A DNA stretch of 64,000 bases from Salinibacterium sp. M195 (GTDB taxonomy: Bacteria; Actinomycetota; Actinomycetes; Actinomycetales; Microbacteriaceae). The notes beneath the pieces are model-generated. The model was not told where the DNA came from, searched no databases, and saw only the letters and a program-made list of their open reading frames with translations. The position numbers were made by a program, and so were the translations under genes. Below are positions 18,851-37,372 of this stretch, in pieces. Every line of letters starts with the position of its first letter. Within the stretch, counting starts at the first letter, position 1. The DNA lies in NCBI RefSeq assembly GCF_019443965.1, contig NZ_CP040814.1, forward strand, positions 1,116,001 through 1,180,000. Reading direction: 5' to 3'.

Positions 18851-19609
18851 ATGGATGAGAACAAGCAGTGGCAAAAGCTGGCTGCAGAGTTTCTAGGAAC
18901 CGCTTTTCTGGTATTCGTCGGCGTTGGCTCTGTGCCCGCGACCTTCATCCTGAACGGTGACGAGCCCTTCACAATGGCGAGCCTCGGAATCATTTCGTTC
19001 GCCTTCGGTCTCATCGTTGTCGTCACGGTGTACGTGTTCGGTTACATCTCCGGCAACCACATCAACCCGGCAGTCACTATCGGTCTCGCCGTCGCCGGCA
19101 AGTTCGCGTGGCGTGAAGTTCCCGGCTACCTCGTCGCTCAGCTTCTCGGTGCTACCGCCGGTGCGTTCGCGATCGTTGGCGTTCTCGGCCAGGCCGCAGT
19201 AGACGCCGGCTTGGGAGTCGCCTCCTTCAATCCAGACACGATCCCCGTTGGCCAGGCATTCTTCGCTGAGTTCATCGGTACGTTCATCCTCGTCTTTACC
19301 GTCTTCGGTGTTATCCACCGCAAGGCAGCCCCCGGCTTCGCCGGACTCGCGATCGGTTTCGTCGTGTTCGCCGCCATCATTCCTGTTGGTCCGATCACCG
19401 GCGCATCCATCAACCCGGCCCGGACCACCGGCCCGATGCTCGTTCAGCAGATCATGGGCGGGCAAGTCGCATGGGAGCAGCTGTGGGTCTACCTCGCCGC
19501 TGAGCTGCTCGCCGGCGTACTCGCCGCTCTCGCGTTCGGCTTCATCTCGAAGACCGCCGCAGACAACACCACCCTCACCGAGGTACTCACGGAAGAGAAG
19601 GCCAAGTAA
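18851..19609 (+). CDS. MIP family channel (glycerol/dihydroxyacetone facilitator)
   Basis: A 252-residue major intrinsic protein with six membrane spans and two NPA half-helices, HINPAVTIG and SINPARTTGP. ATG 18851 follows AAAGGAG. The NPA after the second half-helix is followed by R-T rather than the R-D seen in classical glycerol facilitators or the R-S of water channels, so the selectivity is uncertain by motif alone. Its place as first gene of a DhaKLM operon, overlapping dhaK by one base, argues for uptake of glycerol, dihydroxyacetone or a related small polyol. Confidence 0.9.
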   Translation: MDENKQWQKLAAEFLGTAFLVFVGVGSVPATFILNGDEPFTMASLGIISFAFGLIVVVTVYVFGYISGNHINPAVTIGLAVAGKFAWREVPGYLVAQLLGATAGAFAIVGVLGQAAVDAGLGVASFNPDTIPVGQAFFAEFIGTFILVFTVFGVIHRKAAPGFAGLAIGFVVFAAIIPVGPITGASINPARTTGPMLVQQIMGGQVAWEQLWVYLAAELLAGVLAALAFGFISKTAADNTTLTEVLTEEKAK

Positions 19610-20607
19610 TGAAGAAACTCATCAACACCCCAGAGTCGGTACTCGCCGACGCGCTCGCCGGCATTGACGCTGCGCACCCCGAGCTGAAGGTCGACCACGT
19701 CAACCGCGTGATCTACCGCGCAGAACCCACCCGCGCCGGCAAAGTCGCCCTCATTTCCGGTGGCGGCTCGGGCCACGAACCGCTCCACGGAGGCTTCGTA
19801 GGCTTCGGGATGCTCGACGCGGCATGTGCCGGTGAAGTCTTCACCTCGCCAACCCCCGATCAGATACAGGAAGCCACCAAGGTTGCGGACTCCGGCGCTG
19901 GCGTACTGCACATCGTCAAGAACTACACCGGCGACGTCATGAACTTCGAGATGGCTGCCGAAATGGCCGAAGCGGAAACCGGAGTGAAGGTTGCCTCGGT
20001 CGTCGTCAACGACGACGTAGCCGTTCAGGACTCGCTCTTCACGGCCGGACGCCGTGGCGTTGGCCTCACCGTATTGCTCGAAAAGATCGTCGGCGCAGCA
20101 GCTGAAGAGGGACAAGACCTCGCCGCGGTCACCGCACTGGCACACCGAGTCAACGATTCCGGTCGCTCCATGGGGATGGCTCTCACGAGCTGTACCGTTC
20201 CCGCGGCAGGAAAGCCGACCTTCGATCTGCCAGACGACATGATGGAAATCGGTGTCGGCATCCACGGAGAACCCGGTCGCCACCGCGAGAAGCTGGCGGA
20301 TGCCGCCTCGATCGCCAAGCAACTGGTCGACCCGATCCTGTCCGACATGGACTTCACAGGCTCACCAGCCATTGTGATGATGAACGGAATGGGCGGAACC
20401 CCGCAGATCGAGCTGTACATCATGTACAACGAGGTCGCGAAGCTACTCGAAGCCGCCGGAGTGCAGGTTGTGCGCAACCTCGTCGGTGACTACATCACGA
20501 GTCTTGATATGGCTGGCTGCTCGGTCACCATTCTCAAGGCTGACGAAGAAATGTTGAAACTATGGGATGCCCCGGTGAACACCGCCGGGCTCCGCTGGGG
20601 AGTCTAA
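19609..20607 (+). CDS. dhaK: PEP-dependent dihydroxyacetone kinase, substrate-binding subunit DhaK
   Basis: A 332-residue protein that binds dihydroxyacetone covalently as a hemiaminal with a histidine, here His219 in IGVGIHGEPGRHRE. The glycine-rich GGGSGHEPLHGGFVG and NYTGDVMNFEMAAEMA loops of the active site are complete. It works with DhaL, which carries ADP, and DhaM, which passes phosphate from the PTS, to make dihydroxyacetone phosphate. The GHEPLH form is that of true DHA kinases, unlike the fused kinase at 35351-37039. The start codon overlaps the channel stop (TAATG). Confidence 0.96.
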   Translation: MKKLINTPESVLADALAGIDAAHPELKVDHVNRVIYRAEPTRAGKVALISGGGSGHEPLHGGFVGFGMLDAACAGEVFTSPTPDQIQEATKVADSGAGVLHIVKNYTGDVMNFEMAAEMAEAETGVKVASVVVNDDVAVQDSLFTAGRRGVGLTVLLEKIVGAAAEEGQDLAAVTALAHRVNDSGRSMGMALTSCTVPAAGKPTFDLPDDMMEIGVGIHGEPGRHREKLADAASIAKQLVDPILSDMDFTGSPAIVMMNGMGGTPQIELYIMYNEVAKLLEAAGVQVVRNLVGDYITSLDMAGCSVTILKADEEMLKLWDAPVNTAGLRWGV

Positions 20608-20612
20608 GAACA

Positions 20613-21254
20613 ATGTCTACAAGCACCATCTCTCTCGACCAACTGATCGCCTGGCTTTCGCGGTTCCGCGATCTCGTGACCGAGAAACAGAGCTACCTGA
20701 CCGAACTCGATTCGGCCATTGGCGACGCTGACCACGGCTCCAACATGGTCCGCGGCATGAACGCAGTGGTCGAAAAAGTTGGTGCAGCGCCAGCCGCCGC
20801 CGCCGATGAACTTCTGAAGTCCGTGGGCATGACCCTCGTCACTTCTGTCGGCGGCGCCGCTGGGCCCCTCTACGGCACTCTCTTCTTGCGGATGGGCGTC
20901 AGCGCTGGCTCCGTCACCGAATTGGATGGGGCCGCATTCGGTGCTTCTCTGCGCGCGGGCCTCGACGGTGTTGTTGCGCGGGGCAAGGCCGAAGCGGGCG
21001 ATAAGACAATGTTCGACGCGATCAACCCTGCGCTGGATGCCTGGGATGCTGCCGTCGCTGGCGGCGCAGACATCGCTGCTGCGGCATCCGCAGCGCTCGC
21101 TGCAGCCGAGAAGGGTCGCGATGCAACCGAACCTCTCGTTGCGCGCAAGGGTCGCGCAAGCTACCTCGGAGAACGCAGCGCTGGCCACCTTGACCCTGGC
21201 GCCACCTCGAGCACACTACTGTTCCAGGCGCTTGCCGACACCGTAGCGAGCTGA
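20613..21254 (+). CDS. dhaL: Dihydroxyacetone kinase subunit DhaL (ADP-binding)
   Basis: A 213-residue all-helical subunit that holds a tightly bound ADP-Mg pair, rephosphorylated by DhaM. The metal-binding aspartates and histidine lie in LDSAIGDADHGSNMVRGM, and GGAAGPLYGTLFLRM and GDKTMFDAINPAL follow as in the family. ATG 20613 lies 5 bases after dhaK; a longer in-frame start inside dhaK is rejected because the family begins near the helix LDQLIAWLSRF. The C-terminal ERSAGHLDPGATSS contacts the nucleotide. Confidence 0.96.
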   Translation: MSTSTISLDQLIAWLSRFRDLVTEKQSYLTELDSAIGDADHGSNMVRGMNAVVEKVGAAPAAAADELLKSVGMTLVTSVGGAAGPLYGTLFLRMGVSAGSVTELDGAAFGASLRAGLDGVVARGKAEAGDKTMFDAINPALDAWDAAVAGGADIAAAASAALAAAEKGRDATEPLVARKGRASYLGERSAGHLDPGATSSTLLFQALADTVAS

Positions 21255-21256
21255 GC

Positions 21257-22009
21257 ATGATTGGGATTGTGGTGGTGAGCCACAGCCCTGCGCTTGCGCA
21301 GGCGACGGTGAATCTTGCCCTAGAAATGGTGGGGGAGACCCCGCCGCCGATTGCCATCGCGGCCGGTGCCGGTGAGGGAATCATCGGAACCGATGCCGTG
21401 AAGGTTGCTGCAGCGATCGATGAGGTTGCCAGTGGCGACGGCGTTCTCGTCTTTATGGATCTCGGTTCTGCGGTGCTGAGCGGCACCATGGCAACCGAAT
21501 TCATGAGCACTACCGATGAGGTGAGACTCACGGATGCTCCCTTCGTCGAAGGCCTGATTGCTGCGGTCGTTCTGGCCAATGCTGGGGCGTCGCTTGATGA
21601 GGTCGATCGGGAAGCTCGTGCCGCGATGGGGCCGAAACAGAGTCAATTGGCCGATCAAGGTGATGCGCCTGATTCCCCAACGGCACCTGAAACGGCCGCT
21701 GCTGCGACCGTTGCTGCGACCGTTGACGAGATCAGCGCCGAGGCTTCGCTGATCAACCCAGACGGTTTGCACTCGCGCCCGGCCGCCGCAATCGTTCAGG
21801 CCATCGCCAAACTTGACGCGAAAGTCACGATCGCTGACGTCACTTCGGGCAAAGGTCCGGTGGCAGCGAACAGTCTGATCGGCATCATGTCTCTCGGCGC
21901 GACCAAAGACCATGTCGTGAAATTCACCGCGACAGGAGATGCCGCCCAGGACGCGATCGACCTGCTTGTTGCGATGGCCGCAGACGGCTTTGGTGAACTC
22001 AATCACTAG
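21257..22009 (+). CDS. dhaM: PTS-dependent dihydroxyacetone kinase phosphotransferase subunit DhaM
   Basis: A 250-residue two-domain protein. The N-terminal EIIA-mannose-type domain (about 1-130) has its phosphorylated histidine in VVVSHSPALA (His9), followed by VFMDLGSAVLSGTMA. An Ala-rich linker leads to a C-terminal HPr-like domain (about 165-250) with LHSRPAAAIVQAI, whose histidine accepts phosphate from Enzyme I. The EI-like third domain found in some DhaM proteins is absent. It therefore depends on the general PTS Enzyme I encoded elsewhere. It starts 2 bases after dhaL. Confidence 0.95.
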   Translation: MIGIVVVSHSPALAQATVNLALEMVGETPPPIAIAAGAGEGIIGTDAVKVAAAIDEVASGDGVLVFMDLGSAVLSGTMATEFMSTTDEVRLTDAPFVEGLIAAVVLANAGASLDEVDREARAAMGPKQSQLADQGDAPDSPTAPETAAAATVAATVDEISAEASLINPDGLHSRPAAAIVQAIAKLDAKVTIADVTSGKGPVAANSLIGIMSLGATKDHVVKFTATGDAAQDAIDLLVAMAADGFGELNH

Positions 22010-26827: not shown

Positions 26828-26968
26828 TACGTTGCGGCAGGCATATCCTAAGAGGCTGTCTGCCTAGCGTCATCCCGACGAAATGCAGCGGTTCACGGTC
26901 GCGAATTCAGTGACCCGCAGTAGTCACGATCACCGCCCTCGGTGATCCCTTCTCGTCAAGGATCCACG

Positions 26969-28765
26969 GTGTCAGAACAGTCTGTCCAGCCCGAACGCCA
27001 CAAAGCGGTCGGCACTTTTGCGGCGATCCGCCGGCTTTACCCCTACGCCAAACCGGCGATGCCCCACATCTATCTCGGCATGATCGCCGCGCTGGCCGCG
27101 GGGATCGTTGCGTTGCTGATCCCGCAAGTGTTGCGTTCCCTCGTGGACGGACCATTGCAATCAGGAGACTCTTCGGAGATCTGGCCAGCCTTCTTTATCG
27201 TTCTGGGGCTTGGCGTTGTCGAGGCGATCATGATCGCTTTGCGCCGCTATTTTGTGCTGACACCTGGCACCCATGTTGAGGCGCGTATGCGCAACACCCT
27301 CTACATGACGTTGCAGCATTTGCCCGTAAGTTTTCATGACCGCTGGCCGAGCGGACAGTTGCTGTCGCGCGCAGTGAGCGACCTCAGTCTCATTCGTCGC
27401 TGGCTGTCCTTCGGGCTCGTTCTCCTCGTCGTCAATGTGCTCACGATTGTCGTTGGCCTCATCTTTTTGGTCAACATCTCGTGGGTGCTCGGTGTCATTT
27501 TTATCGTCACCTCGATTCCACTCTGGGTGTACGGGTACGTCTTCGAAAAGAAGTACTCCATCGTCGCGCGCCGCAGTCAAGACCAAAGCGGAGACCTCGC
27601 CACTACGGTCGAGGAATCAGTGCACGGCATCCGGGTGCTTAAAGCCTTTGGGCGAGGCAAGCATGCACTCATTGGTTTCTCGGCCCAGGCCGAAAGCCTG
27701 CGCGGCACCGAGATCGAGAAGGCACGCGCCATCGCCGGTATCTGGCTGTGGCTGCTTCTCGTGCCCGACGTCATGTTCGCACTCGGCTTACTCGGTGGAG
27801 TGTGGCTCGTCGTACAGGGCAACATTTCGGCTGGTGACCTCGTCGCATTCTTTGCTACGGCAACGGTGCTGCGCTTCCCGGTGGAATCGATCGGTTTCCT
27901 CCTCTCGATGACGTTCGACGCTCGCACGGCTGCCGACCGCTTCTTCGAAGTGATGGATTCTGCGAACCCGATCACCGACCCCGAGCACCCGGAGACGATC
28001 ACTGAGAGCGAAGGGCGTCTTGAGTTCACCAACGTGCACTTCCGCTACCCTGATTCGCCCGCAAATGTGCCCGATCTCATCAACGGGATCAACCTCACTA
28101 TTGAGCCGGGCGAGACGATGGCTCTTGTGGGGCTGACCGGTTCCGGAAAGTCGACCATCACCGCCCTCACGACACGTCTCTATGACGTGACTGAAGGTTC
28201 GATCTCGATCGACGGTGTCGACATTCGCAACCTCACCCTGCTGGAGCTGCGGCGTCATCTCGCGATGGCCTTTGAGGATGCAACGCTGTTCTCATCGAGT
28301 GTGCGCGAAAACGTGCTCATGGGGCGCCCGGATTCGACTGAAGAAGAACTGCGCGAAGCTCTCGGAATCGCTCAAGCCGACTTCGTTTACGACTTACCGG
28401 CCGGCCTCGACACCCTCGTTGGTGAAGAAGGACTCAGCCTCTCTGGAGGTCAACGACAGCGCCTGGCGCTCGCCAGGGCAGTCGCGGCCCAACCGGCGGT
28501 GCTGGTGCTTGATGACCCGCTCTCGGCGCTCGATGTCGATACGGAAGCATTGGTCGAAGCCGCATTGCGCAAGATTCTCGGTTCGACTACGGCGCTCATC
28601 GTGGCCCATCGGCCATCGACAGTGATGCTCGCAGACCGGGTTGCGCTGCTTGAAGACGGCAAGGTCACCGCGGTCGGACGTCACTCCGATTTGCTCGCGA
28701 CGAGCAGTCATTATCGCTACGTCATATCCAGTCTCGAAGAAGAAGAACAGGAGGTCACCTCATGA
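26969..28765 (+). CDS. Heterodimeric ABC exporter, subunit with degenerate ATP site
   Basis: A 598-residue type-I half-transporter: six membrane segments then an ATPase domain. GTG 26969 follows CAAGGA; an upstream in-frame GTG lacks a ribosome site. Walker A is GLTGSGKST, the signature is canonical ([10 protein letters not shown]), but Walker B reads VLVLDDP, with Asp in place of the catalytic Glu, and the Q-loop has Glu for Gln (AFEDATLF). The switch His is present (VAHRPS). With its partner, which has the opposite defect, this makes one consensus and one degenerate ATP site, as in TM287/288- or BmrCD-like exporters. Substrate unknown; drugs or lipids are typical. It overlaps the next gene by 4 bases. 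Confidence 0.92.
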
Positions 28766-30567
28766 GCGTCACAGGAACTTCTGGCGAAGAACGCAACGAC
28801 TACACGAAGGTCGAGAGTCGCCAGATTCGGCAACGATCGCTGCGACTTCTTGGTTCACTGATCTCGCCCCTTCGCGCCCGCGTGATTCTCACGATGGCGG
28901 TTGTCGTCGTGAGTACGGCAGCCCAAGTCGCTGGACCAGCGCTGATCGCTTTTGGCATCGACCGCGCGCTACCCGCGCTTATCGATGGCAACGGACTGCC
29001 CCTCATCGTGACTGTTGGCGCCTACCTGCTCACCGGTGTCGCAGGGGCGACCCTGATCGCTTGGTACACCGTGCTGAGTGCGCGCGTGAGCCAAGCGATT
29101 CTCTTTGACCTGCGCAAACGCGTGTTCCTGCACACCCAGCGCTTGAGCCTCGAGTTTCACGAGAGCTACACGTCTGGCCGAATCATCGCGCGTCAAACCA
29201 GCGACCTCGACGCGATTCGTGAACTGCTCGACTCTGGCATCAACCAGCTTGTTCAGGGTGCGCTCTACATGGTGTTCATCGCGATCGCCATGTTCTCGCT
29301 CGACTGGGTGAGCGGCATCGTTCTGTTTGGCGCCCTCATTCCGTTGGCGTTCCTCACACGCTGGTTCCAGTTGCGTTCGCAATTGCACTTCCGCGAAACA
29401 CGAACTACCTCGGCGAAGCTGATCGTGCACTTTGTGGAGACGATGACGGGAATCCGCGCGGTCAAAGCGTTCCGCAAAGAAGAGCGCAATCGTGCACATT
29501 TCGGCGGGCTCGTTGAGAATTATCGGGATGCCAACGCCCGCGTCATCCAATTGTTCGGAATTTTTGATCCTGGCCTCGTGCTCATCGGTAACGTTGCCCT
29601 AGCTCTCATTCTGTTGATCGGTGGCCTTCGGGTGTCGACAGGTGAACTCGCGATCGGTGCCCTGCTCGGTGCGCTCTTGTACGCTCGGCAGTTCTTTGCG
29701 CCAGCGCAAGAGATGGCGATGTTCTACAACTCGTATCAGTCGGCTGCTGCTGCCCTCGAGAAAATTTCTGGTGTGCTGGAAGAGAAGCCGACGGTCGCTG
29801 ACCCGACGACTCCGATTGACCTGCGCAAGGCCAGCGGAACCGTGAAGTTTGATGGCGTTGAGTTTGCCTACAACGCCGACAAGGTGATTCTGCCGAAGTT
29901 TGATCTCGAGTTGCCTGCCGGGCAAACGATCGCCATGGTGGGAACAACCGGTGCGGGAAAGTCGACTCTCGCGAAACTCATTTCGCGGTTCTACGACCCC
30001 AGCCAGGGGACTGTCTCGCTCGATGGCGTTGATCTGCGCAAGTTGCACCCGAAGGACCTTCGGCGCGCGATCGTGATGGTCACCCAAGAGGCGTACCTAT
30101 TCTCCGGAAACGTCGCAGACAACATTGCTCTTGGCAAACCTGATGCGACCCGCGAGGAGATCATCAAGGCCGCCAAAGCGGTCGGGGCACACGAGTTCAT
30201 CGAAGCTCTTCCGAATGGCTACGAGACAGACGTGAACAAGAGGGGTGGCCGAGTAAGTGCCGGGCAGCGACAACTGTTGTCGTTTGCGCGAGCGTTTATC
30301 GCCGACCCCGTTGTGCTGATTCTGGATGAGGCAACTGCGTCACTCGACATTCCCAGCGAGCGTCTCGTGCAGGCTGGCCTACAAACGCTGCTCTCCGATC
30401 GCACCGCCATCATCATCGCGCACCGTCTCTCGACGGTCGCCATCGCTGACCGCGTACTCGTCATGGAACACGGCCGGGTCATCGAGGATGGCACTCCGCA
30501 GGAACTGATCTCGGGAAGTGGAAAATTCGCCCAGCTGCACGCGGCATGGCGCGACTCGCTCGTTTAG
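28762..30567 (+). CDS. Heterodimeric ABC exporter, subunit with catalytic Walker B
   Basis: A 601-residue half-transporter pairing with the preceding protein. Six membrane segments are followed by an ATPase domain with Walker [11 protein letters not shown]-loop [10 protein letters not shown], Walker B VLILDEAT with catalytic Glu, and switch His IIAHRLS. Its signature is altered to VSAGQRQ. Because each composite site uses Walker motifs from one subunit and the signature from the other, this Walker B with the partner's LSGGQ forms the working site. ATGA overlap with the first gene gives coupled translation. A strong terminator follows. Confidence 0.93.
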
Positions 30568-30592
30568 TCGCTCATTTGGCGCGTTCGCATTG

Positions 30593-30625
30593 CCGCCCCG
30601 ATGCTCAGGCATCGGGGCGGTTTTT
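30593..30625 (+). terminator. Rho-independent terminator after the ABC exporter
   Basis: A perfect 12-base GC-rich stem (30593-30604 with 30609-30620) closes a TCAG tetraloop and is followed by TTTTT. It separates the exporter operon from the GntR-TTT operon. Confidence 0.93.
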
Positions 30626-30676
30626 GCGTTAACGCCTGAGTTGTGGGCAGCAGTTATCGCGCGTGCGACTGCTGAC

Positions 30677-30736
30677 TTGACGCGGTTGATCGATCTGGAT
30701 ACTGTGTGTTTACCGTTTACTGTTTACTGTAAACAG
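30677..30736 (+). promoter_or_regulatory. Promoter and operator of the GntR-TTT operon
   Basis: TTGACG (30677-30682) and TACTGT (30700-30705) are spaced by 17 bases. Just downstream lies the perfect palindrome CTGTTTAC-T-GTAAACAG (30720-30736), with two further GTTTAC half-sites before it. The palindrome falls at or just after the start of transcription and ends about a dozen bases before the regulator gene, as expected for autorepression by the GntR protein. Confidence 0.7.
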
Positions 30737-30748
30737 AGTGAGGAACCA

Positions 30749-31411
30749 ATGATGCAGCCTCTGCTTCCACAACGCCCGATCGGGCTCGGCGACCAAGTCG
30801 CTGATGAGCTCCGCCGTCAAATCGTGACGCAAGTGCGACCGAACGGTTCGCTGCTTCTCGAAGAGAAACTAGCCACCGACTTCCAAGTCAGCCGAGGCCC
30901 CGTTCGCGAGGCCATCCGCACGCTTACGCAAGAAGGACTCGTCGCGAGCGGAAAGCGAAGCGCAACAGTCATCGGGCTCACCGCCGCCGACATCGACGAA
31001 CTATTCTCCCTACGCGCGTCGTTAGAACTCCTGGCATTGCGCGAGTCAGTCGTTCAGCATTCCGAAGACCTGAACGCATCACTTGACGCCGTCATCGTCG
31101 ACATGAAGGCCGCCGTTGCCGCCGTCGATGCCGCCGCTTTTACCCTCGCCGACCTGCACTTCCACGGGGCCTTTTACGCCGCGTCTCAGCACCGACGCCT
31201 TTCTGATGTCTGGGCTCAGTATCGCCCAACCATCGAACTGCTTCTTCTTGTCGCCAACGTTGGCCACGCCGATCTCGAGCCCGCGCTGCACAGTCATATC
31301 GTGCTCGCGGAACTCATCCGTGAAAACGAGCTCGACGCAGCATGCGACGAGCTCGAGAAGCACCTAGACCACTCACGCGCTCGAGTGCGCCGTGAGTATG
31401 CGGGCGGCTAA
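30749..31411 (+). CDS. GntR family (FadR/FCD) transcriptional regulator
   Basis: A 220-residue regulator. ATG 30749 follows GTGAGGAA; longer in-frame starts run back through the terminator and operator and are rejected. The winged helix is LGDQVADELRRQIV to FQVSRGPVREAIRTLTQEGL, and the C-terminal all-helical FCD ligand domain has the metal-binding pattern DLHFHGAFY and HSHIVLAE. FCD regulators bind metal-chelated carboxylic acids or sugar acids. It heads the TTT transporter-DapA-DhaKL operon, so the ligand is probably the imported acid or a breakdown product. Confidence 0.92.
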   Translation: MMQPLLPQRPIGLGDQVADELRRQIVTQVRPNGSLLLEEKLATDFQVSRGPVREAIRTLTQEGLVASGKRSATVIGLTAADIDELFSLRASLELLALRESVVQHSEDLNASLDAVIVDMKAAVAAVDAAAFTLADLHFHGAFYAASQHRRLSDVWAQYRPTIELLLLVANVGHADLEPALHSHIVLAELIRENELDAACDELEKHLDHSRARVRREYAGG

Positions 31412-31457
31412 CCACCCACTCGCACGCACCACCCACAACGATGTGAAAAGGAAAACA

Positions 31458-32420
31458 GTGAAAAACAAGTTCATCACCATCGCCGCAGGAGCTGCGGCAC
31501 TTCTCCTCTTGGCTGGCTGCGCGAATAGAGACGCTGCCGTTGTCGATGACGAGGACTACCCGAGTAAGGCGATCACCCTCGTGGTTCCTTACGCCGCTGG
31601 TGGTGCATCCGACCTGTCGGCTCGCACTCTCGCCGCGGCGATGGAAGAGTCCCTCGGGCAGTCGATCATCGTCGAGAACCGCACGGGCGGTGCCGGTTCA
31701 GTCGGGCTCTCCTACCTCTCAGGTCGCCCAGCCGATGGATACACGATTGGGTACCTCCCTGTTGAATCAGTAATGCTGCAGTATCAGGGTTACGACCTTG
31801 ACCCCGCCGCCTACGATGTTCTCGGTCAAATCGTTTCGGTACCCGCGACCATTGCCGTGCCGGCAGACAGCCCCTATGAAACGTTGCAGGATCTCGTCGA
31901 TGCGGCTGAAGCTAACCCGGATTCCATCACCGTTTCCAACTCTGGCGCAGGATCGATCTGGCAGGCAGCGACAACGGCGCTTAACGAAGTGGCCGGCGTC
32001 TCGTTGAAGCCTGTTCCGTTCGACGGCGGAGCTCCAGCAGTTACCGCAGCGATCGGGAGTCAGGTCGATGCTGTTATTGCCGGAATCTCTGAAACTGCTC
32101 CAGCGGCAGCGGATGGTCGCCTGCGCGTGCTCGCCATCTTCGATGACGAAGCTTCCGATGCATTGCCCGGAGTCGAGACCGCTAAGTCTCTCGGATTCGA
32201 TGTATCCATCGGTGGTTGGGGCGCAATCGGTGCTCCCGCTGGATTGCCCGATTCTGTGCGCGATGCACTGTCAGACGCTGTAAAAGCCGGAGTCGAATCT
32301 GAAGAATTCACTTCCGTTATCAACAAGTCGGGCAACCTTCCGGTCTACAAGAACTCGAGCGACTTCACGACGTTCTTCACCACGGAATCGGAGCGATTCG
32401 GCGCGCTCTTCGCAGAGTAA
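31458..32420 (+). CDS. Tripartite tricarboxylate transporter substrate-binding lipoprotein (TctC family)
   Basis: A 320-residue extracytoplasmic receptor. GTG 31458 follows AAAAGGA and gives a short signal with lipobox LLLLAGC. The fold markers are YPSKAITLVVPYAAGGASDL near the N-terminus (ligand beta-hairpin), VENRTGGAGSVG, and SNSGAGSIWQ. TctC-family receptors bind di- or tricarboxylates and sugar acids. TctB and TctA follow immediately, so all three transporter parts are present. The ligand cannot be read from sequence, but the downstream lyase-like enzyme and keto-kinase favour a hydroxylated acid over citrate. Confidence 0.92.
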   Translation: MKNKFITIAAGAAALLLLAGCANRDAAVVDDEDYPSKAITLVVPYAAGGASDLSARTLAAAMEESLGQSIIVENRTGGAGSVGLSYLSGRPADGYTIGYLPVESVMLQYQGYDLDPAAYDVLGQIVSVPATIAVPADSPYETLQDLVDAAEANPDSITVSNSGAGSIWQAATTALNEVAGVSLKPVPFDGGAPAVTAAIGSQVDAVIAGISETAPAAADGRLRVLAIFDDEASDALPGVETAKSLGFDVSIGGWGAIGAPAGLPDSVRDALSDAVKAGVESEEFTSVINKSGNLPVYKNSSDFTTFFTTESERFGALFAE

Positions 32421-32424
32421 AACA

Positions 32425-32925
32425 ATGACTGCTCCTGTTCTTTCGGAGCAGGCCCCCACGGCCGGCGGTGACGAATCTCGTTTCCGCCGGCTGGTCGGCC
32501 CGCTCGCAGGCCCGGCAATTGGACTCATCTTTGGACTCGTCGTCCTTGTAATATCGCAGTCCATCGTCGAGCCCAACATTGCGACAAGTTTCAGCCCACG
32601 ATGGTGGCCGCAGTCGCTCGGCGCTCTCATTGCGATCTTGAGCGCCGGTGTGCTCATCAAGGACATCGCGCGTCCTGGTGTTCCCGATGAAATGGAGCCC
32701 GCGACGCGAACTGGCTACGGCCGCGTACTCGCCGTCTTCGGCGCAATCGCTGCGTACGCGGTGGTCTGGTATTTCGTTACTTTCCCGATCGCAACCGCAC
32801 TGCTCTTTGTGGCACTCGTTCTCATCTTGGGCGCGCGCGGTTGGAAAGCGATCGTTATTTTCCCCCTCGTGTGTACCGGCGTGCTGTACACCCTGTTCGG
32901 ACTGCTATTGAAGGTGCCGCTATGA
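32425..32925 (+). CDS. Tripartite tricarboxylate transporter small membrane subunit (TctB family)
   Basis: A 166-residue protein with four predicted membrane spans, the usual build of the DUF1468/TctB family: LAGPAIGLIFGLVVLVISQS, LGALIAILSAGVL, VLAVFGAIAAYAVVW and ATALLFVALVLIL. The family's conserved arrival at a terminal hydrophobic hairpin is visible. It starts 4 bases after the receptor and overlaps the large subunit by 4 bases, as is standard for this transporter class. Confidence 0.9.
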   Translation: MTAPVLSEQAPTAGGDESRFRRLVGPLAGPAIGLIFGLVVLVISQSIVEPNIATSFSPRWWPQSLGALIAILSAGVLIKDIARPGVPDEMEPATRTGYGRVLAVFGAIAAYAVVWYFVTFPIATALLFVALVLILGARGWKAIVIFPLVCTGVLYTLFGLLLKVPL

Positions 32926-34457
32926 ACCCCGTGACAGTTGGTCTCGAACAGCTCGCCGACCCCTTTGTTCTGCTGTGTATTTTGATCGGTGCTCTTGTAG
33001 GCATGCTCGTCGGGGCCTTTCCCGGCGTTACGGCCACAATGGCCGTCGCTCTTGCCAGCAGTTTTACTTTGACCATGGACCCGGTCCCGGGGCTGGCGGT
33101 GCTCTTAACGATCTACGTCGCTGCCAACTTTGGCGATCGCGTTCCGGCGATCCTGGTGAATACTCCCGGAACTCCGGCGTCAATCGCGACGACTTTCGAC
33201 GGCTATCCGATGGCGAAGAAGGGCTTGGCCGGAGTAGCACTCACGACATCCGCGTTCGCCTCAGCGATTGGCACGTTTGCCGGTCTGTTGTTGCTCGTCT
33301 TCGCTGCGATCCCCCTCTCAAAGATTGCGCTTCAGTTTGGCCCGGCAGAAATGTTTGCCCTCGTTGTCTTCGGCCTCACCATGATGGTTGGCGTCTCTGG
33401 CGGCAAGATTGGCAAGGGGCTTATTGCTGGAGCCATCGGATTGGCACTGGCCGTTATTGGCCGCGACCCCATTACGGGCACGGAACGCTTCACCTTCGGG
33501 ATCTTGGAGCTCAGCGATGGCATCCCCTTCATCGCCGCAATTATTGGCCTGTTCGGTGTTGCCGACGTGCTCGACCAGATGTTGAGTCATCGGGCGGAGA
33601 AATATACTCCGATCACCCAATTCGGGCGTTGGTGGCCCAACCGCGCAGAGCTGCGCCAGATGGTCAGGCCACTCTTCGTAGGATCTGGAGTTGGTGCTGT
33701 CGTAGGCGCTGTTCCTGCAGCAGGCGGCGATATTGCCGGGATCATGTCGTGGGCAGCAGCGAAGAAGGCATCGAAACACCCCGAAGAGTTTGGAAAAGGC
33801 TCGATCGAAGGTCTGACCGCTACAGACACTGCCTCGAACGCGACACTCGGTCCATCCGTCACCACAACGCTGGCTCTCGGTATTCCGGGAGACTCAGTGA
33901 TGGCCGTGCTGATTGGATCGCTGATCATCTGGGGTATTCAGCCAGGGCCGGCGCTCTTTACCAATCGCCCAGATCTTGTTTACACGATCGCGGGAATCAT
34001 GGTGGTTGCGACGGTTCTCACGTTGGTACTCAGCCTCGTGCGGCTGCGTGGCGTGACCAAACTTCTCGAACTCAAGCCAGCCTTCCTGTGGACCGTCATC
34101 ATCGTGTTCTGCATGGTGGGAACCTTCGCCGTCAACAACAGCGTCTTCGATGTGGGAGTCATGCTGCTGTTCGGTCTCGTCGGGTTGGTTCTGAGGCGCA
34201 CGGGATTCCCCGCGGGACCCGTAGTGCTCGGGCTGATCTTGGGCAAACTCGCCGAGGGCAACCTTCGGAGAGCGCTAGAAATTGGCGGGATTGAGAACAT
34301 TTTGACCAGCCCGATCGCCGTGACGACACTGATCATCAGTGCCGCAGCGATCACCCTCCCTGCACTGTTCGCGCGCGTCAAGCGCAGAAAGCTCGCCCAA
34401 CTCGTTACAGCGCAGCAAGCTACGACATCGTTACCAACCGACCCTCTCCGAAAGTGA
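32922..34457 (+). CDS. Tripartite tricarboxylate transporter large permease (TctA family)
   Basis: A 511-residue permease with about twelve membrane spans. ATG 32922 overlaps the small-subunit stop (ATGA). The two family signatures are present: GMLVGAFPGVTATMAVAL in the first half and GAVVGAVPAAGGDIAGIMSW in the second, plus TASNATLGPSVTTTLALGIPG. It uses an ion gradient to import the acid delivered by the receptor. The next gene begins within or just after its stop codon. Confidence 0.95.
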   Translation: MNPVTVGLEQLADPFVLLCILIGALVGMLVGAFPGVTATMAVALASSFTLTMDPVPGLAVLLTIYVAANFGDRVPAILVNTPGTPASIATTFDGYPMAKKGLAGVALTTSAFASAIGTFAGLLLLVFAAIPLSKIALQFGPAEMFALVVFGLTMMVGVSGGKIGKGLIAGAIGLALAVIGRDPITGTERFTFGILELSDGIPFIAAIIGLFGVADVLDQMLSHRAEKYTPITQFGRWWPNRAELRQMVRPLFVGSGVGAVVGAVPAAGGDIAGIMSWAAAKKASKHPEEFGKGSIEGLTATDTASNATLGPSVTTTLALGIPGDSVMAVLIGSLIIWGIQPGPALFTNRPDLVYTIAGIMVVATVLTLVLSLVRLRGVTKLLELKPAFLWTVIIVFCMVGTFAVNNSVFDVGVMLLFGLVGLVLRRTGFPAGPVVLGLILGKLAEGNLRRALEIGGIENILTSPIAVTTLIISAAAITLPALFARVKRRKLAQLVTAQQATTSLPTDPLRK

Positions 34458-34465
34458 TCAGAACC

Positions 34466-35347
34466 ATGACTATTCCCCTGACCCCCCTCGTCATCACCGC
34501 CACGCCGACCCTCTTCAACGCCGACGAAACTCTGAACCTTGAGGGCATCCGTTCGCATGTGGAATGGCTCCGTGGCCACGGCGTCGACGCACTGTTCCCC
34601 GCCGGGACTTCGGGAGAGTTCCCGTCTCTCACCGATGATGAACGCATCGAAATTCTCTCGATCTGCCTCGACATTTTTCCGGCAGATAGCGTCTACTTTC
34701 ACGTCGGCGCCGCGACCGCACGACAGGCCGAGAACCTCGTGCGCCGTGCGGTCGCCCTGGGAGCGACTCGCATGGCAGCGATCACCCCGTTCTTCCAGCC
34801 GGCACCCGAAGACCAGGTCGTCGACTACTACCGCCGTCTCGTGAACGCTGCCGATGGTGCCGAAATCTTCGCGTATCTCTTCGAAGCCCGTACCTCCAGT
34901 CACTCGCTGCCGAGCGTGCTTTCGCGACTCGTCGAGGTTGGAGTTGCCGGAGTGAAGCTGAGCGGCGAACCCGACGAACGCGTCGAGCAGTTCATCGCTG
35001 CAGCGCCGGAAGGATTCACCGTCTTCTCCGGCAACGACGTGTCCTTCGGCTGGCTCATTCAATCTGGCGGCCACGGAATTATCTCGGGAGTATCGTCGGC
35101 GTACCCCGAACCCTTCGTGAAGCTCCGCGATGCTCTCATTGCCAACGACGCTGACGCCATCGCTCACTGGCAAGCAAAAGTTGAGCAAGCCGTAACCGCG
35201 GTACGTGCAGGCAGCCTGACTCACCTCAAAGCAGGAATCGCTGCCCGTGATTTTGCCGCGAGCCCGGTGCGTTCAGCAATTGCACCCGTGAGTGACACTG
35301 ACCTCCTCACGATTCAGTCACTCGCCACCGAATACAACGAGAACTAG
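34466..35347 (+). CDS. DapA-family class I aldolase/dehydratase of unknown substrate
   Basis: A 293-residue TIM-barrel enzyme of the dihydrodipicolinate synthase/N-acetylneuraminate lyase family. The Schiff-base lysine is Lys164 (GVKLSGEP) and the partner tyrosine Tyr137 (FAYLFEARTS). The pyruvate-carboxylate loop is AGTSGEFPSL. The second-shell TPYYN of DapA is replaced by TPFFQ, removing one catalytic-triad tyrosine, so lysine synthesis is unlikely; a 2-keto-acid aldolase or keto-deoxy-acid dehydratase role fits better. ATG 34466 is my choice; GTG 34454, overlapping the permease stop, is possible. It lies between a carboxylate transporter and a keto-sugar kinase, implying cleavage of the imported acid. 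Confidence 0.82.
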   Translation: MTIPLTPLVITATPTLFNADETLNLEGIRSHVEWLRGHGVDALFPAGTSGEFPSLTDDERIEILSICLDIFPADSVYFHVGAATARQAENLVRRAVALGATRMAAITPFFQPAPEDQVVDYYRRLVNAADGAEIFAYLFEARTSSHSLPSVLSRLVEVGVAGVKLSGEPDERVEQFIAAAPEGFTVFSGNDVSFGWLIQSGGHGIISGVSSAYPEPFVKLRDALIANDADAIAHWQAKVEQAVTAVRAGSLTHLKAGIAARDFAASPVRSAIAPVSDTDLLTIQSLATEYNEN

Positions 35348-35350
35348 ACC

Positions 35351-37039
35351 ATGCGCAAGATTATTAACGAGCCAGACGCCTTCGTTGACGAAGTCATGGA
35401 GGGCATTTTTGCTGCCCACGCCAGCCAAATTCGGCCAGCTACGACAGACAATCGCACCCTCGTTCGCGTAGATTCACCGAAAACTGGGCGGGTGGGCATC
35501 GTCACCGGTGGCGGCTCTGGTCACTTGCCCTTTTTTCTCGGGTACGTCGGTCAAGGACTCTGCTCAGCCGTGGCAATCGGCAACGTGTTCTCCTCTCCTT
35601 CGTCGGCCCAAATCTATGCCGCATCGCAGGCGGTTAGTTCTGACGCCGGGCTGCTCTACCTCTACGGCAACTATGGGGGAGACGTCTACAATTTCGACAT
35701 TGCCGCCGAGATGTGCCGCACCAATGGCATCCAGGTCAACACGGTCCTCGGAACGGACGACCTCCTCTCTGCACCGCCGGAAAGAGCCGCCGATCGCCGC
35801 GGCGTTGCTGGGCTCTTCTTGGTCTACAAAGTGGCCGGCGCTGCTGCCGACCAGCTGCTGAATCTTGATGAAGTTACGCGCATTGCTAACGCTGGTGTGC
35901 AGAACACCCGCACGATGGGGGTTGGCCTGTCGCCAACGATTCTGCCGGCAGCGGGAGAAGCAACATTCCACCTCGCTGATGGCGAAATGGAAATCGGGGT
36001 CGGTATCCATGGAGAACAGGGTACGCATCGCGGTCCGCTGGAGTCTGCCGATCAGATCACCGATCGCTTTCTCGAAGGGATTGCTGGCGAACTGAAGTTG
36101 ACGGACGGTGCACGTGTTGCTGTGCTCGTTAATGGCTTGGGCGCGACACCGCTAGAAGAGCTCTACGTCATGTATCGCCGGGTGAACACCGTGCTCGCAG
36201 CGCGCGGGGTGACTATCGCGCATCGTTTCGTTGGCGAATATGTCACGAGCCTTGAAATGGCCGGAGCGTCGCTCTCGATCATGATCCTTGACGATGAACT
36301 TGAGGCGCTCATTGCTGCTCCGGCAGCGTCGCCGTTCTTCCAACAGGGAACCACCGAAACGATCTCGGCGGCGAATGCTCCGGCCCTGGTCGATGCCTCA
36401 GTATCCGCCTTCGCCCCTGCCCCGGTCACGACCGGCAAGCGAAGTGCCGCACGGCAGCTGCTGATTGAGCGCCTTCCTGCGATGTCCGCCTATGGGGAAG
36501 AGCTTCGGGAACTCGATGCAGCGCTCGGCGACGGAGACCTCGGAATCACGGTGACCGAGGGAAGCGCAGCCGTTGCTGCTGCTCTCAGCGAGCTGCCCGA
36601 AGATTCTGACGCGGCGACACTGCTCCGTGCTGCTGCTAGTGCATTCGCGGCAGCGAACCCCTCGACGTTTGCCGCTTTGGTTGGCTCAGGACTATTTGCT
36701 GCGGCCGATGCCATGCCGGCTCGAAGTGAACTCGGCCTCGATGAACTCGTGGTCGCGCTTCAGGCAGTCTTCGATCGTGTGAGCGAAAAGGGTGGAGCGC
36801 GTCTCGGAGACAAGACCTTCCTCGATGTTTTGCACCCTGTCATTGAGGCGCTTGCCGGGACGAGAGGATCAACCGAGGGAGCGACCGTGACGGCCGCAGC
36901 TCGGCTCGCGGTCGATGCTTCCGCTCAGCTTCAGTCAGCACGGGGACGAGCAGCGTGGCAACAGGAACGAACCATTGGTCACCGCGATCCTGGTGCGGTT
37001 GCTGTGCTGCGGTTTGTGGAAGTGCTTTCGGGCGAATAA
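35351..37039 (+). CDS. Fused DhaK-DhaL family kinase (dihydroxyacetone/erythrulose kinase type)
   Basis: A 562-residue ATP-dependent kinase. Residues 1-330 are a DhaK domain with the hemiaminal histidine at His220 (VGIHGEQGTH). After an Ala/Pro-rich linker, residues 355-560 form the DhaL domain (LDAALGDGDLGITVTEG, LGDKTFLDVLHPV, GHRDPGA). In the first domain the DHA-kinase loop GHEPLH is GHLPFFLGYVG, a form I associate with kinases of larger ketoses such as erythrulose. The second DhaL Asp-His element reads GDGDLG instead of GDADHG, which may alter nucleotide binding. It ends the TTT operon, 3 bases after the DapA-like gene, so it probably phosphorylates the keto product of that enzyme. Confidence 0.85.
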   Translation: MRKIINEPDAFVDEVMEGIFAAHASQIRPATTDNRTLVRVDSPKTGRVGIVTGGGSGHLPFFLGYVGQGLCSAVAIGNVFSSPSSAQIYAASQAVSSDAGLLYLYGNYGGDVYNFDIAAEMCRTNGIQVNTVLGTDDLLSAPPERAADRRGVAGLFLVYKVAGAAADQLLNLDEVTRIANAGVQNTRTMGVGLSPTILPAAGEATFHLADGEMEIGVGIHGEQGTHRGPLESADQITDRFLEGIAGELKLTDGARVAVLVNGLGATPLEELYVMYRRVNTVLAARGVTIAHRFVGEYVTSLEMAGASLSIMILDDELEALIAAPAASPFFQQGTTETISAANAPALVDASVSAFAPAPVTTGKRSAARQLLIERLPAMSAYGEELRELDAALGDGDLGITVTEGSAAVAAALSELPEDSDAATLLRAAASAFAAANPSTFAALVGSGLFAAADAMPARSELGLDELVVALQAVFDRVSEKGGARLGDKTFLDVLHPVIEALAGTRGSTEGATVTAAARLAVDASAQLQSARGRAAWQQERTIGHRDPGAVAVLRFVEVLSGE

Positions 37040-37051
37040 TGGCTCGGTGCG

Positions 37052-37372
37052 CTACGCAGAGGGGCAAAAGCGCGCAAGCTTCAGATCGACCCGATAGCTG
37101 CCGTCGGGCATCCATCTCAGTGGCGTTGATTCGGTCTCGTAATAAGCGAGTGCCTGATCTTCGTGACAGACCGGTGGATGCCCGCCCGCACGAATCACGC
37201 GCCACCACGTGACGTCTGAGCCGTAACGGGCCATCACGGTGCCGACGGCGCGAGCTGCCCGAGAACCGAGCGTCGCCGCGACATCGCCGTAGGTCATGAC
37301 CTGACCTTCCGGAATATCGTCAACTACGGCAAGCACGCGACTCACAAAATCGTCGTTAGGGGTGTTCACCAC
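37052..37372 (-). CDS. MGMT-family protein, alkyltransferase-like (ATL)
   Basis: About 106 residues, matching the DNA-binding domain of O6-methylguanine methyltransferase. IPEGQVMTYGDVAATLGSRAARAVGTVM is the recognition helix region (read in pieces). The PCHR active-site motif is replaced by WWRVIRAGG, so no alkyl-accepting cysteine exists. ATL proteins bind alkylated bases and hand them to nucleotide excision repair. I place the start at GTG 37372; the frame is open far upstream but that part is unlike the family. The start lacks a clear ribosome site. It follows the GNAT gene on the same strand. Confidence 0.75.
   Translation of the reverse strand: MVNTPNDDFVSRVLAVVDDIPEGQVMTYGDVAATLGSRAARAVGTVMARYGSDVTWWRVIRAGGHPPVCHEDQALAYYETESTPLRWMPDGSYRVDLKLARFCPSA

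Follow-up and report, generated by a model that had tools for sequence, protein, structure and literature searches.

A window of 64,000 nt from the 3.04-Mb chromosome of Salinibacterium sp. M195, whose numbering is used throughout, carries six plus-strand genes at 30749-37039. By Pfam these encode a GntR/FCD regulator, the transporter subunits TctC, TctB and TctA, an enzyme of the DapA fold and a fused DhaK-DhaL kinase (DhaKL), which are the families named in a first-pass annotation of the same DNA. The gene set is a single conserved unit, patchily distributed and apparently self-contained. We propose tentatively, from comparison of sequences, that the operon could be a self-contained catabolic route for a 3-deoxy-2-keto (2-ulosonic) sugar acid, most simply one of six carbons, which would be cleaved to pyruvate and an aldehyde before DhaKL acts, a reading to which we give somewhat less than an even chance.

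Conservation and probable acquisition of the operon

With the DapA-like enzyme as query, a protein search gave 106 proteins. A scan of species genomes with a 23-sequence alignment (the window sequence and 22 of the 106) confirmed 92 relatives, and the 80 best-ranking loci among them were fetched. The order TctC-TctB-TctA-DapA-DhaKL, on one strand, was found in 22 of the 80 (L023-L044), hosted by Microbacteriaceae, Micrococcaceae, Brevibacteriaceae, Nocardiopsidaceae and one unplaced actinobacterium. The GntR gene is present in 20 of these 22, leading the unit in 19 and trailing it in L034, while the contigs of the two loci with no visible GntR gene start within TctC. In the DapA tree (84 rows, rooted at midpoint only), the 22 ordered loci, the window and L152 form a single 24-row clade at 100/94, neighboured by Georgenia ruanii, whose DhaKL lies about 8 kb off on the opposite strand, and by Micromonospora rows with another gene set. 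Two loci labelled DhaKL-adjacent, L076 and L149, fall outside this clade; at L149 (8146-10687) DhaK and DhaL adjoin a quite different DapA-family gene of 306 aa, a separate pairing of aldolase type and kinase. In the DhaK tree (47 rows) the 24 operon rows share a 30-row clade at 96/92 with six others (L134-L139). Because the DapA clade is matched by a clade of the DhaK half, the aldolase and the kinase appear to have largely travelled together; on the DhaK tree, however, the distribution of the operon label requires two changes or more, so that the kinase has also moved to or from other clusters.

The closest named carrier found is Salinibacterium sp. PAMC 21357, with a DapA-like enzyme at 98% identity. 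Among 27 same-genus genomes the gene occurs at 98-100% in two (M195 itself and one other) and a third holds a 33% relative; in a family sample of 398 genomes a relative at E <=1e-40 was present in 18, four of them, M195 included, at >=72% identity. A search of the 27 same-genus genomes located the downstream neighbour at 37052 in 26, at 27 places in total. Seven of these places, in seven genomes, show the ABC exporter gene that ends at window position 30567 immediately next to it and no operon in between; at nine a longer distance separates the pair, at nine the exporter lies outside the 1.5 kb read, and the remaining two are the carriers. The simplest account is that a unit spanning 30568-37051 was gained in the ancestor of the two carriers, loss being the alternative. 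The exporter belongs to a pair of adjacent ABC half-genes at 26942-30567, the end of the second marking the insertion boundary. The possibility of a chance assembly, for which the first-pass annotation had proposed neighbourhood analysis as a check, is ruled out by the ordered loci, the single DapA clade and the recurrence of the DNA element described below. That the genes are accidental neighbours or a decaying relic is hardly credible: the patchiness, with a close form in 2 of 27 same-genus and 4 of 398 family genomes, would fit, but order is kept across four families and the reading frames are open.

A recurring operator-like element and the GntR regulator

At 30708-30735, on the plus strand, lie four 7-bp half-sites in register, GTTTACC, GTTTACT, GTTTACT and GTAAACA, three direct and the last inverted, which would form an operator if bound by the regulator. 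The element ends 13 bp before the first possible start codon of the GntR/FCD gene (30749 or 30752-31411, plus strand). A pattern of two half-sites (GTTWAC/GTWAAC) separated by one base was searched for in 100 loci (the 80 and 20 more; 1.88 Mb). All 59 matches lay upstream of a named pathway gene, at a distance of 300 bp or less, and a single base-shuffled version of these loci gave none; the loci had been chosen as pathway holders, and the whole-genome scans carry more weight. The element was located within 120 bp of the gene in 17 of the 20 clade loci with a GntR gene, the exceptions being L030 (contig edge), L034 (site before TctC instead) and L038.

In the complete M195 genome there was no further exact match to GTTWACNGTWWAC, a pattern nearly the same as the two-half-site one that leaves out the GTAAAC-N-GTTTAC arrangement. 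Scans of 29 other genomes, 18 of them from the 24-row clade, were accompanied by a reversed-pattern control, which gave 0 to 3 matches per genome, and positions were compared by hand. Of the 18 clade genomes, 14 match nowhere but at the operon, and two (G043 and G419) also at a single additional place; G424 shows no match, and that of G428 is on a contig away from those read. Four of the 29 genomes had no match at all. Off-operon matches amounted to five places plus the one on the G428 contig, and of the five read only that of Brevibacterium album adjoins a GntR paralogue. There, at L189, a second cluster combines the paralogue and the same element with a TRAP transporter, an HpcH/HpaI-like protein and a HIBADH-like dehydrogenase.

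More distant loci share the element in part. In a sialidase/isomerase group it was found in 14 of 28 loci, including those of Micromonospora and of Arthrobacter (L052, where one copy stands ahead of each of PfkB, DapA and a second GntR gene), and the other 14 had no exact match; among four Devosia loci it was present in L050, L051 and L061 and not in L101. With half of the sialidase/isomerase loci lacking an exact match, the regulator and element appear common to much, not all, of the wider family. The GntR residues D135, H139, H183 and H205, which we take to form the metal site typical of FCD regulators that bind carboxylates, are invariant in 60 of 60 rows (best GntR match per row), and their retention suggests that the effector is a carboxylate. 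No dehydratase or dehydrogenase was seen under the element in the exact-match scan of the M195 genome, which favours import of a ready-made 3-deoxy-2-keto acid.

The DapA-like enzyme

The DapA-fold gene (34466-35347, plus strand, ATG start, Pfam DHDPS fold) encodes 293 aa, which were aligned with E. coli NanA, YagE and DapA. Comparison with E. coli DapA bore out the first-pass observation that Tyr137 and Lys164 are kept and that TPFFQ replaces TPYYN. Tyr107, part of the DapA catalytic triad, corresponds to Phe110, and relatives shown have F or Y. Two positions after the Schiff-base lysine the enzyme has Ser166, as against Thr167 in NanA, Thr169 in YagE and Ala163 in DapA. It shares the HVG motif with NanA and contains GTSGE, and the Schiff-base Lys, the Tyr and the Ser at Lys+2 are invariant in the 24 operon rows. 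This Ser fits an aldolase better than a dehydratase, judging from the aligned residues, and the enzyme is predicted to be a pyruvate-type class I aldolase performing a retro-aldol reaction through an expected Schiff base at Lys164.

None of the named enzyme models was passed. The DapA equivalog TIGR00674 gave 93 bits (cut-off 206.15), the N-acetylneuraminate lyase models 53.9 of 382 (TIGR00683) and 76 of 281 bits (NF003164), the archaeal 2-keto-3-deoxygluconate (KDG) aldolase NF040954, second-best NCBIfam profile, 83.9 of 390 bits, and the 5-dehydro-4-deoxyglucarate dehydratase models 57.9 of 278 (NF002958) and 45.7 of 374 bits (TIGR03249). Lysine biosynthesis, which the annotation had already set aside, is ruled out for this gene by the TIGR00674 score together with four other PF00701 matches in the genome, of which the protein at 258 bits is a better candidate for the lysine-pathway DapA. 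Sialic acid catabolism was rejected on the missed lyase cut-offs; nanE and nanK did not appear among the scanned neighbours, although no search aimed at them was made. In an AlphaFold2 model of mean pLDDT 94, the first four Foldseek rows are C. glutamicum N-acetylneuraminate lyase.

The fused kinase

The kinase gene (35351-37039, plus strand; Pfam Dak1 and Dak2) keeps His58, Asp111, His220 and the GDGDLG motif, which presumably supply the active-site His, the base His, the Asp and the metal motif. The Lys that precedes NYxGD in E. coli DhaK is Gly in the operon kinase, and GNYGGD was found in all 46 subfamily rows examined. A search of open-licence papers on DhaK Lys104 gave nothing relevant. 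The protein passes the dihydroxyacetone kinase family model NF011049 (550 bits, cut-off 492) and falls below the glycerone kinase model TIGR02361 (331.9 of 574.95 bits). Human TKFC, likewise a fused DhaK-DhaL kinase, acts on D-glyceraldehyde and dihydroxyacetone (PMC6429413).

A phosphotransferase system (PTS)-type dihydroxyacetone set lies in the same window at 18851-22009, comprising a MIP channel, DhaK with KNYTGD, DhaL and a DhaM-like EIIA-man/HPr protein, with the DhaK-DhaL-DhaM genes at 19609-22009. A third DhaK-DhaL pair, of the GNYGGD type, occurs elsewhere in the genome (L133; G000:C1:820001-838000) among genes for a periplasmic sugar-binding protein and for ABC-type, 3-hydroxyisobutyrate-dehydrogenase-like, BtpA, FGGY and M29-like proteins, and parts of this set recur in further Microbacteriaceae loci. 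In one Microbacteriaceae genome (L134) a DhaKL gene adjoins an HpcH/HpaI gene, and a GntR-TctCBA-DapA unit (DapA at 29%) stands separately.

The transporter

TctC (31458-32420, GTG start, lipoprotein-like N-terminus, 145 bits), the small membrane subunit TctB (32425-32925, 61 bits) and the large membrane subunit TctA (32922-34457, ATG start, 467 bits), all on the plus strand, each exceed the Pfam cut-off and make up, by family, a complete tripartite tricarboxylate transporter (TTT). The closest solved homologue of the TctC receptor by sequence is 25HK (164.5 bits), followed by BugD (136.4). The 25HK entry was deposited for the receptor that binds alginate oligosaccharides in Vibrio sp. C42 (PMC13390454). 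By alignment, a Pro of the citrate-binding BugD corresponds to Gly24 in 25HK and to Ala in the window TctC.

Gene arrangement and boundaries

Gene starts were picked from start codons and homologue length, and reading frames were checked. The close packing described in the annotation holds from TctC to DhaKL, where TctB and TctA overlap by 4 bp (ATGA) and gaps of 8 bp and 3 bp separate TctA from the DapA-like gene and the latter from DhaKL; it does not extend to GntR and TctC, which are 46 bp apart. Upstream, a terminator-like hairpin of 13 pairs (30592-30621, plus strand, pattern match only) follows the ABC-exporter gene; the pattern scan gave 11 such sites for the region, compared with 6.3 on average in shuffled sequence, and it found no promoter-like site. 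Downstream lies a convergent minus-strand gene from 37369 to 37052, alkyltransferase-like by eye. Given the upstream hairpin and the convergent neighbour, the transcription unit probably consists of these six genes. The GC content of the unit is 0.597, against 0.599 for the window.

Proposed pathway and alternative readings

In the proposed route, the GntR/FCD protein would occupy the tandem element and be released by an acid effector, and TctABC would bring the acid into the cell. Lys164 would then form a Schiff base on the 2-keto group, and retro-aldol cleavage would yield pyruvate and a small aldehyde, which DhaKL would phosphorylate with ATP for entry into central metabolism. This general mechanism is moderately supported; the Foldseek ranking, the kinship of TctC to the alginate receptor and the Ala that replaces the Pro of BugD speak for it. 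The kinase type suggests that this second product has approximately three or four carbons. The simplest substrate would be a six-carbon 2-keto-3-deoxygluconate/galactonate-type acid, from which glyceraldehyde and next a triose phosphate would arise, with cleavage preceding phosphorylation; a six-carbon acid giving glyceraldehyde would need no further enzyme.

Several observations weigh against this proposal. VIA-align ranks one or more DapA chains first, with DapA, NanA and YagE within about 1 Z, and the modelled fold does not choose between DapA and NanA/YagE; as the fold neighbours are tied, the predicted aldolase chemistry rests on residues and context. Arg142, present in 77 of 83 rows, corresponds to DapA Arg138 (Leu142 in NanA) and might serve to bind a further acid group. 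In the aligned TctC, the 25HK contact residues Thr225 and Arg227 are both Gly, so that its ligand may differ from that of the alginate receptor. The characterised TTT ligands, one excepted, had two carboxylates or another such group, as stated in a 2018 review (PMC5812351); a six-carbon monoacid has no such second group. Four listed DhaKL relatives carry the name D-erythrulose 4-kinase at JGI, and in UniRef the protein of this operon type from Nocardiopsis ansamitocini is called erythrulose kinase, which would favour a four-carbon product. Of the six non-operon DhaKL in the 30-row clade, five occur with FGGY and M29-like genes and the sixth (L134) beside the HpcH/HpaI aldolase, so that the kinase does not seem tied to the DapA-like aldolase. 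A match to an aldolase of the 2-keto-3-deoxy-6-phosphogluconate (KDPG) type elsewhere in the genome means that a KDG route may already exist there. Finally, the palindromic core of the element with one mismatch matches one more place in the genome, and the regulon may thus be slightly larger than the operon.

The erythrulose-kinase names, one of them within the operon type, can also be read as pointing to a seven-carbon acid, 3-deoxy-heptulosonate (or heptulosarate), cleaved to pyruvate and a tetrose, with DhaKL as a tetrose/erythrulose kinase. GNYGGD in place of KNYTGD may signal a substrate other than dihydroxyacetone, and Arg142 would agree. Such database names are usually automatic, however, and a ketose kinase could act on an aldotetrose only after its isomerization, for which no enzyme is present in the operon or was seen under the element; this reading is unlikely. 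A dehydratase or decarboxylating dehydratase resembling 5-keto-4-deoxyglucarate dehydratase, with the kinase on another branch, appears improbable: the two dehydratase models are far from passed, the resulting product would need no DhaKL, and the Ser at Lys+2 is of the aldolase type, even though enzymes of this kind are known in the DapA fold, a distal carboxylate might be bound by Arg142, and carriage of aldarates and D-glucarate by TTT systems is reported (PMC13390454).

More doubtful still is the option offered in the first-pass annotation, cleavage of a branched tertiary-alcohol keto acid to pyruvate and dihydroxyacetone or another ketone, with phosphorylation to dihydroxyacetone phosphate. 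DhaK kinases act on ketones, and the His, base His and Asp positions of DhaK are kept. TKFC accepts glyceraldehyde as well as dihydroxyacetone (PMC6429413), which weakens the option while leaving a ketone admissible. It is weakened further by the PTS-type DhaK-DhaL-DhaM set already encoded in the window, and by the substrate that it requires. A class I aldolase of the pyruvate type releases an aldehyde from ordinary 3-deoxy-2-keto acids and would yield a ketone only from a branched tertiary alcohol, and we know of no natural 3-deoxy-2-keto acid with such a branch. The broader scheme of that annotation, uptake of a hydroxylated acid, carbon-carbon cleavage and phosphorylation, remains the best reading; where it had allowed cleavage or dehydration, the Ser at Lys+2 fits cleavage, and dehydration fits less well.

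The wider family and known systems

Distant DapA kin (33-43% identity), mostly with TctABC, stand in varying sets with BNR_2 sialidase-like proteins, a remote FucI-like isomerase, FGGY and PfkB (L046, L047, L052, L053, L057, L078, L093, L094 and others). The BNR_2 proteins inspected had no signal peptide by eye. The DhaKL clade lies among these multi-enzyme kin in the midpoint-rooted DapA tree, on which ground a DhaKL tail may have replaced a multi-enzyme one. In Devosia kin (L050, L051) an HpcH/HpaI aldolase and PfkB follow DapA, and by analogy the Devosia and Brevibacterium album clusters appear to follow the same sugar-acid theme. In Thermobifida fusca (L038:12778-13974) an enolase-superfamily (MR_MLE) gene lies beside the operon on the opposite strand; used as a query, its protein had no match in other loci of the DhaKL branch, and it was given no weight.

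It is possible, if unlikely, that these loci form an unrecognised actinobacterial family for 2-ulosonic acid uptake, built of GntR and its element, TctABC, a DapA-fold aldolase and a tail matched to the aldehyde, with three or four carbons in the DhaKL branch and a pentose in the BNR_2/FucI-like branch, which would fit import of 3-deoxy-D-manno-octulosonate (Kdo), free or glycosidic, and its cleavage to pyruvate and D-arabinose. The Kdo reading of the BNR_2/FucI-like/FGGY/PfkB branch is a guess, because its isomerase resembles E. coli FucI too distantly to bear it out. The FucI-like proteins pass Pfam Fucose_iso_C (37 bits, cut-off 29); their identity as proven D-arabinose/L-fucose isomerases is not supported, local matches to E. 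coli FucI being <=28 bits and the profile alignment probability 13%. At positions aligned, with uncertainty, to FucI E337, D361 and H528, which we take to be metal residues, they read D, E and H.

Among characterised systems, the E. coli nan operon shares the logic of importer, aldolase and kinase, and NanA the DapA-fold Schiff-base aldolase, the hydroxyl at Lys+2 and HVG. Identity to NanA is only about 21-24% in structural alignments, however, with scores below the lyase cut-offs and Arg142 for Leu142, and the kinase and importer are of other types. The KDG aldolases (E. coli YagE and archaeal) resemble the enzyme in fold and in Thr or Ser at Lys+2, but it lies far under the archaeal profile cut-off, and yagE adjoins a D-xylonate dehydratase gene whereas the window gene adjoins no dehydratase. 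The Vibrio sp. C42 alginate locus likewise joins a GntR gene to a TTT system. There KdgK phosphorylates first and Eda cleaves second (PMC13390454), while the window operon pairs a DapA-fold enzyme with DhaKL and has no lyases. C. freundii dihydroxyacetone kinase 1un9, human TKFC and the erythrulose kinases agree with the operon kinase in domain order, active-site His and GDGD; the operon kinase, which itself passes NF011049, differs in falling below TIGR02361, in GNYGGD and in its aldolase-like and importer neighbours. The actinobacterial BNR_2/FucI-like/FGGY/PfkB loci, related through homologous GntR and DapA proteins and, in half, the element, have several sugar-handling enzymes where the window operon has a single DhaKL.

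Significance

As the first-pass annotation had supposed, no named pathway with this gene set came to light: no description of the set or of its element was found among the matches listed from the open-licence literature, in searches partly aimed elsewhere and with most subscription papers outside them. If the proposal is true, it would assign roles at once to a TctC receptor, a group of aldolases, a subfamily of kinases, and a regulator and its DNA element, and it would add a bacterial cleave-then-phosphorylate route for keto-deoxy sugar acids. With the element, much of the family, some of its sialidase-linked branch included, could be traced across whole genomes.

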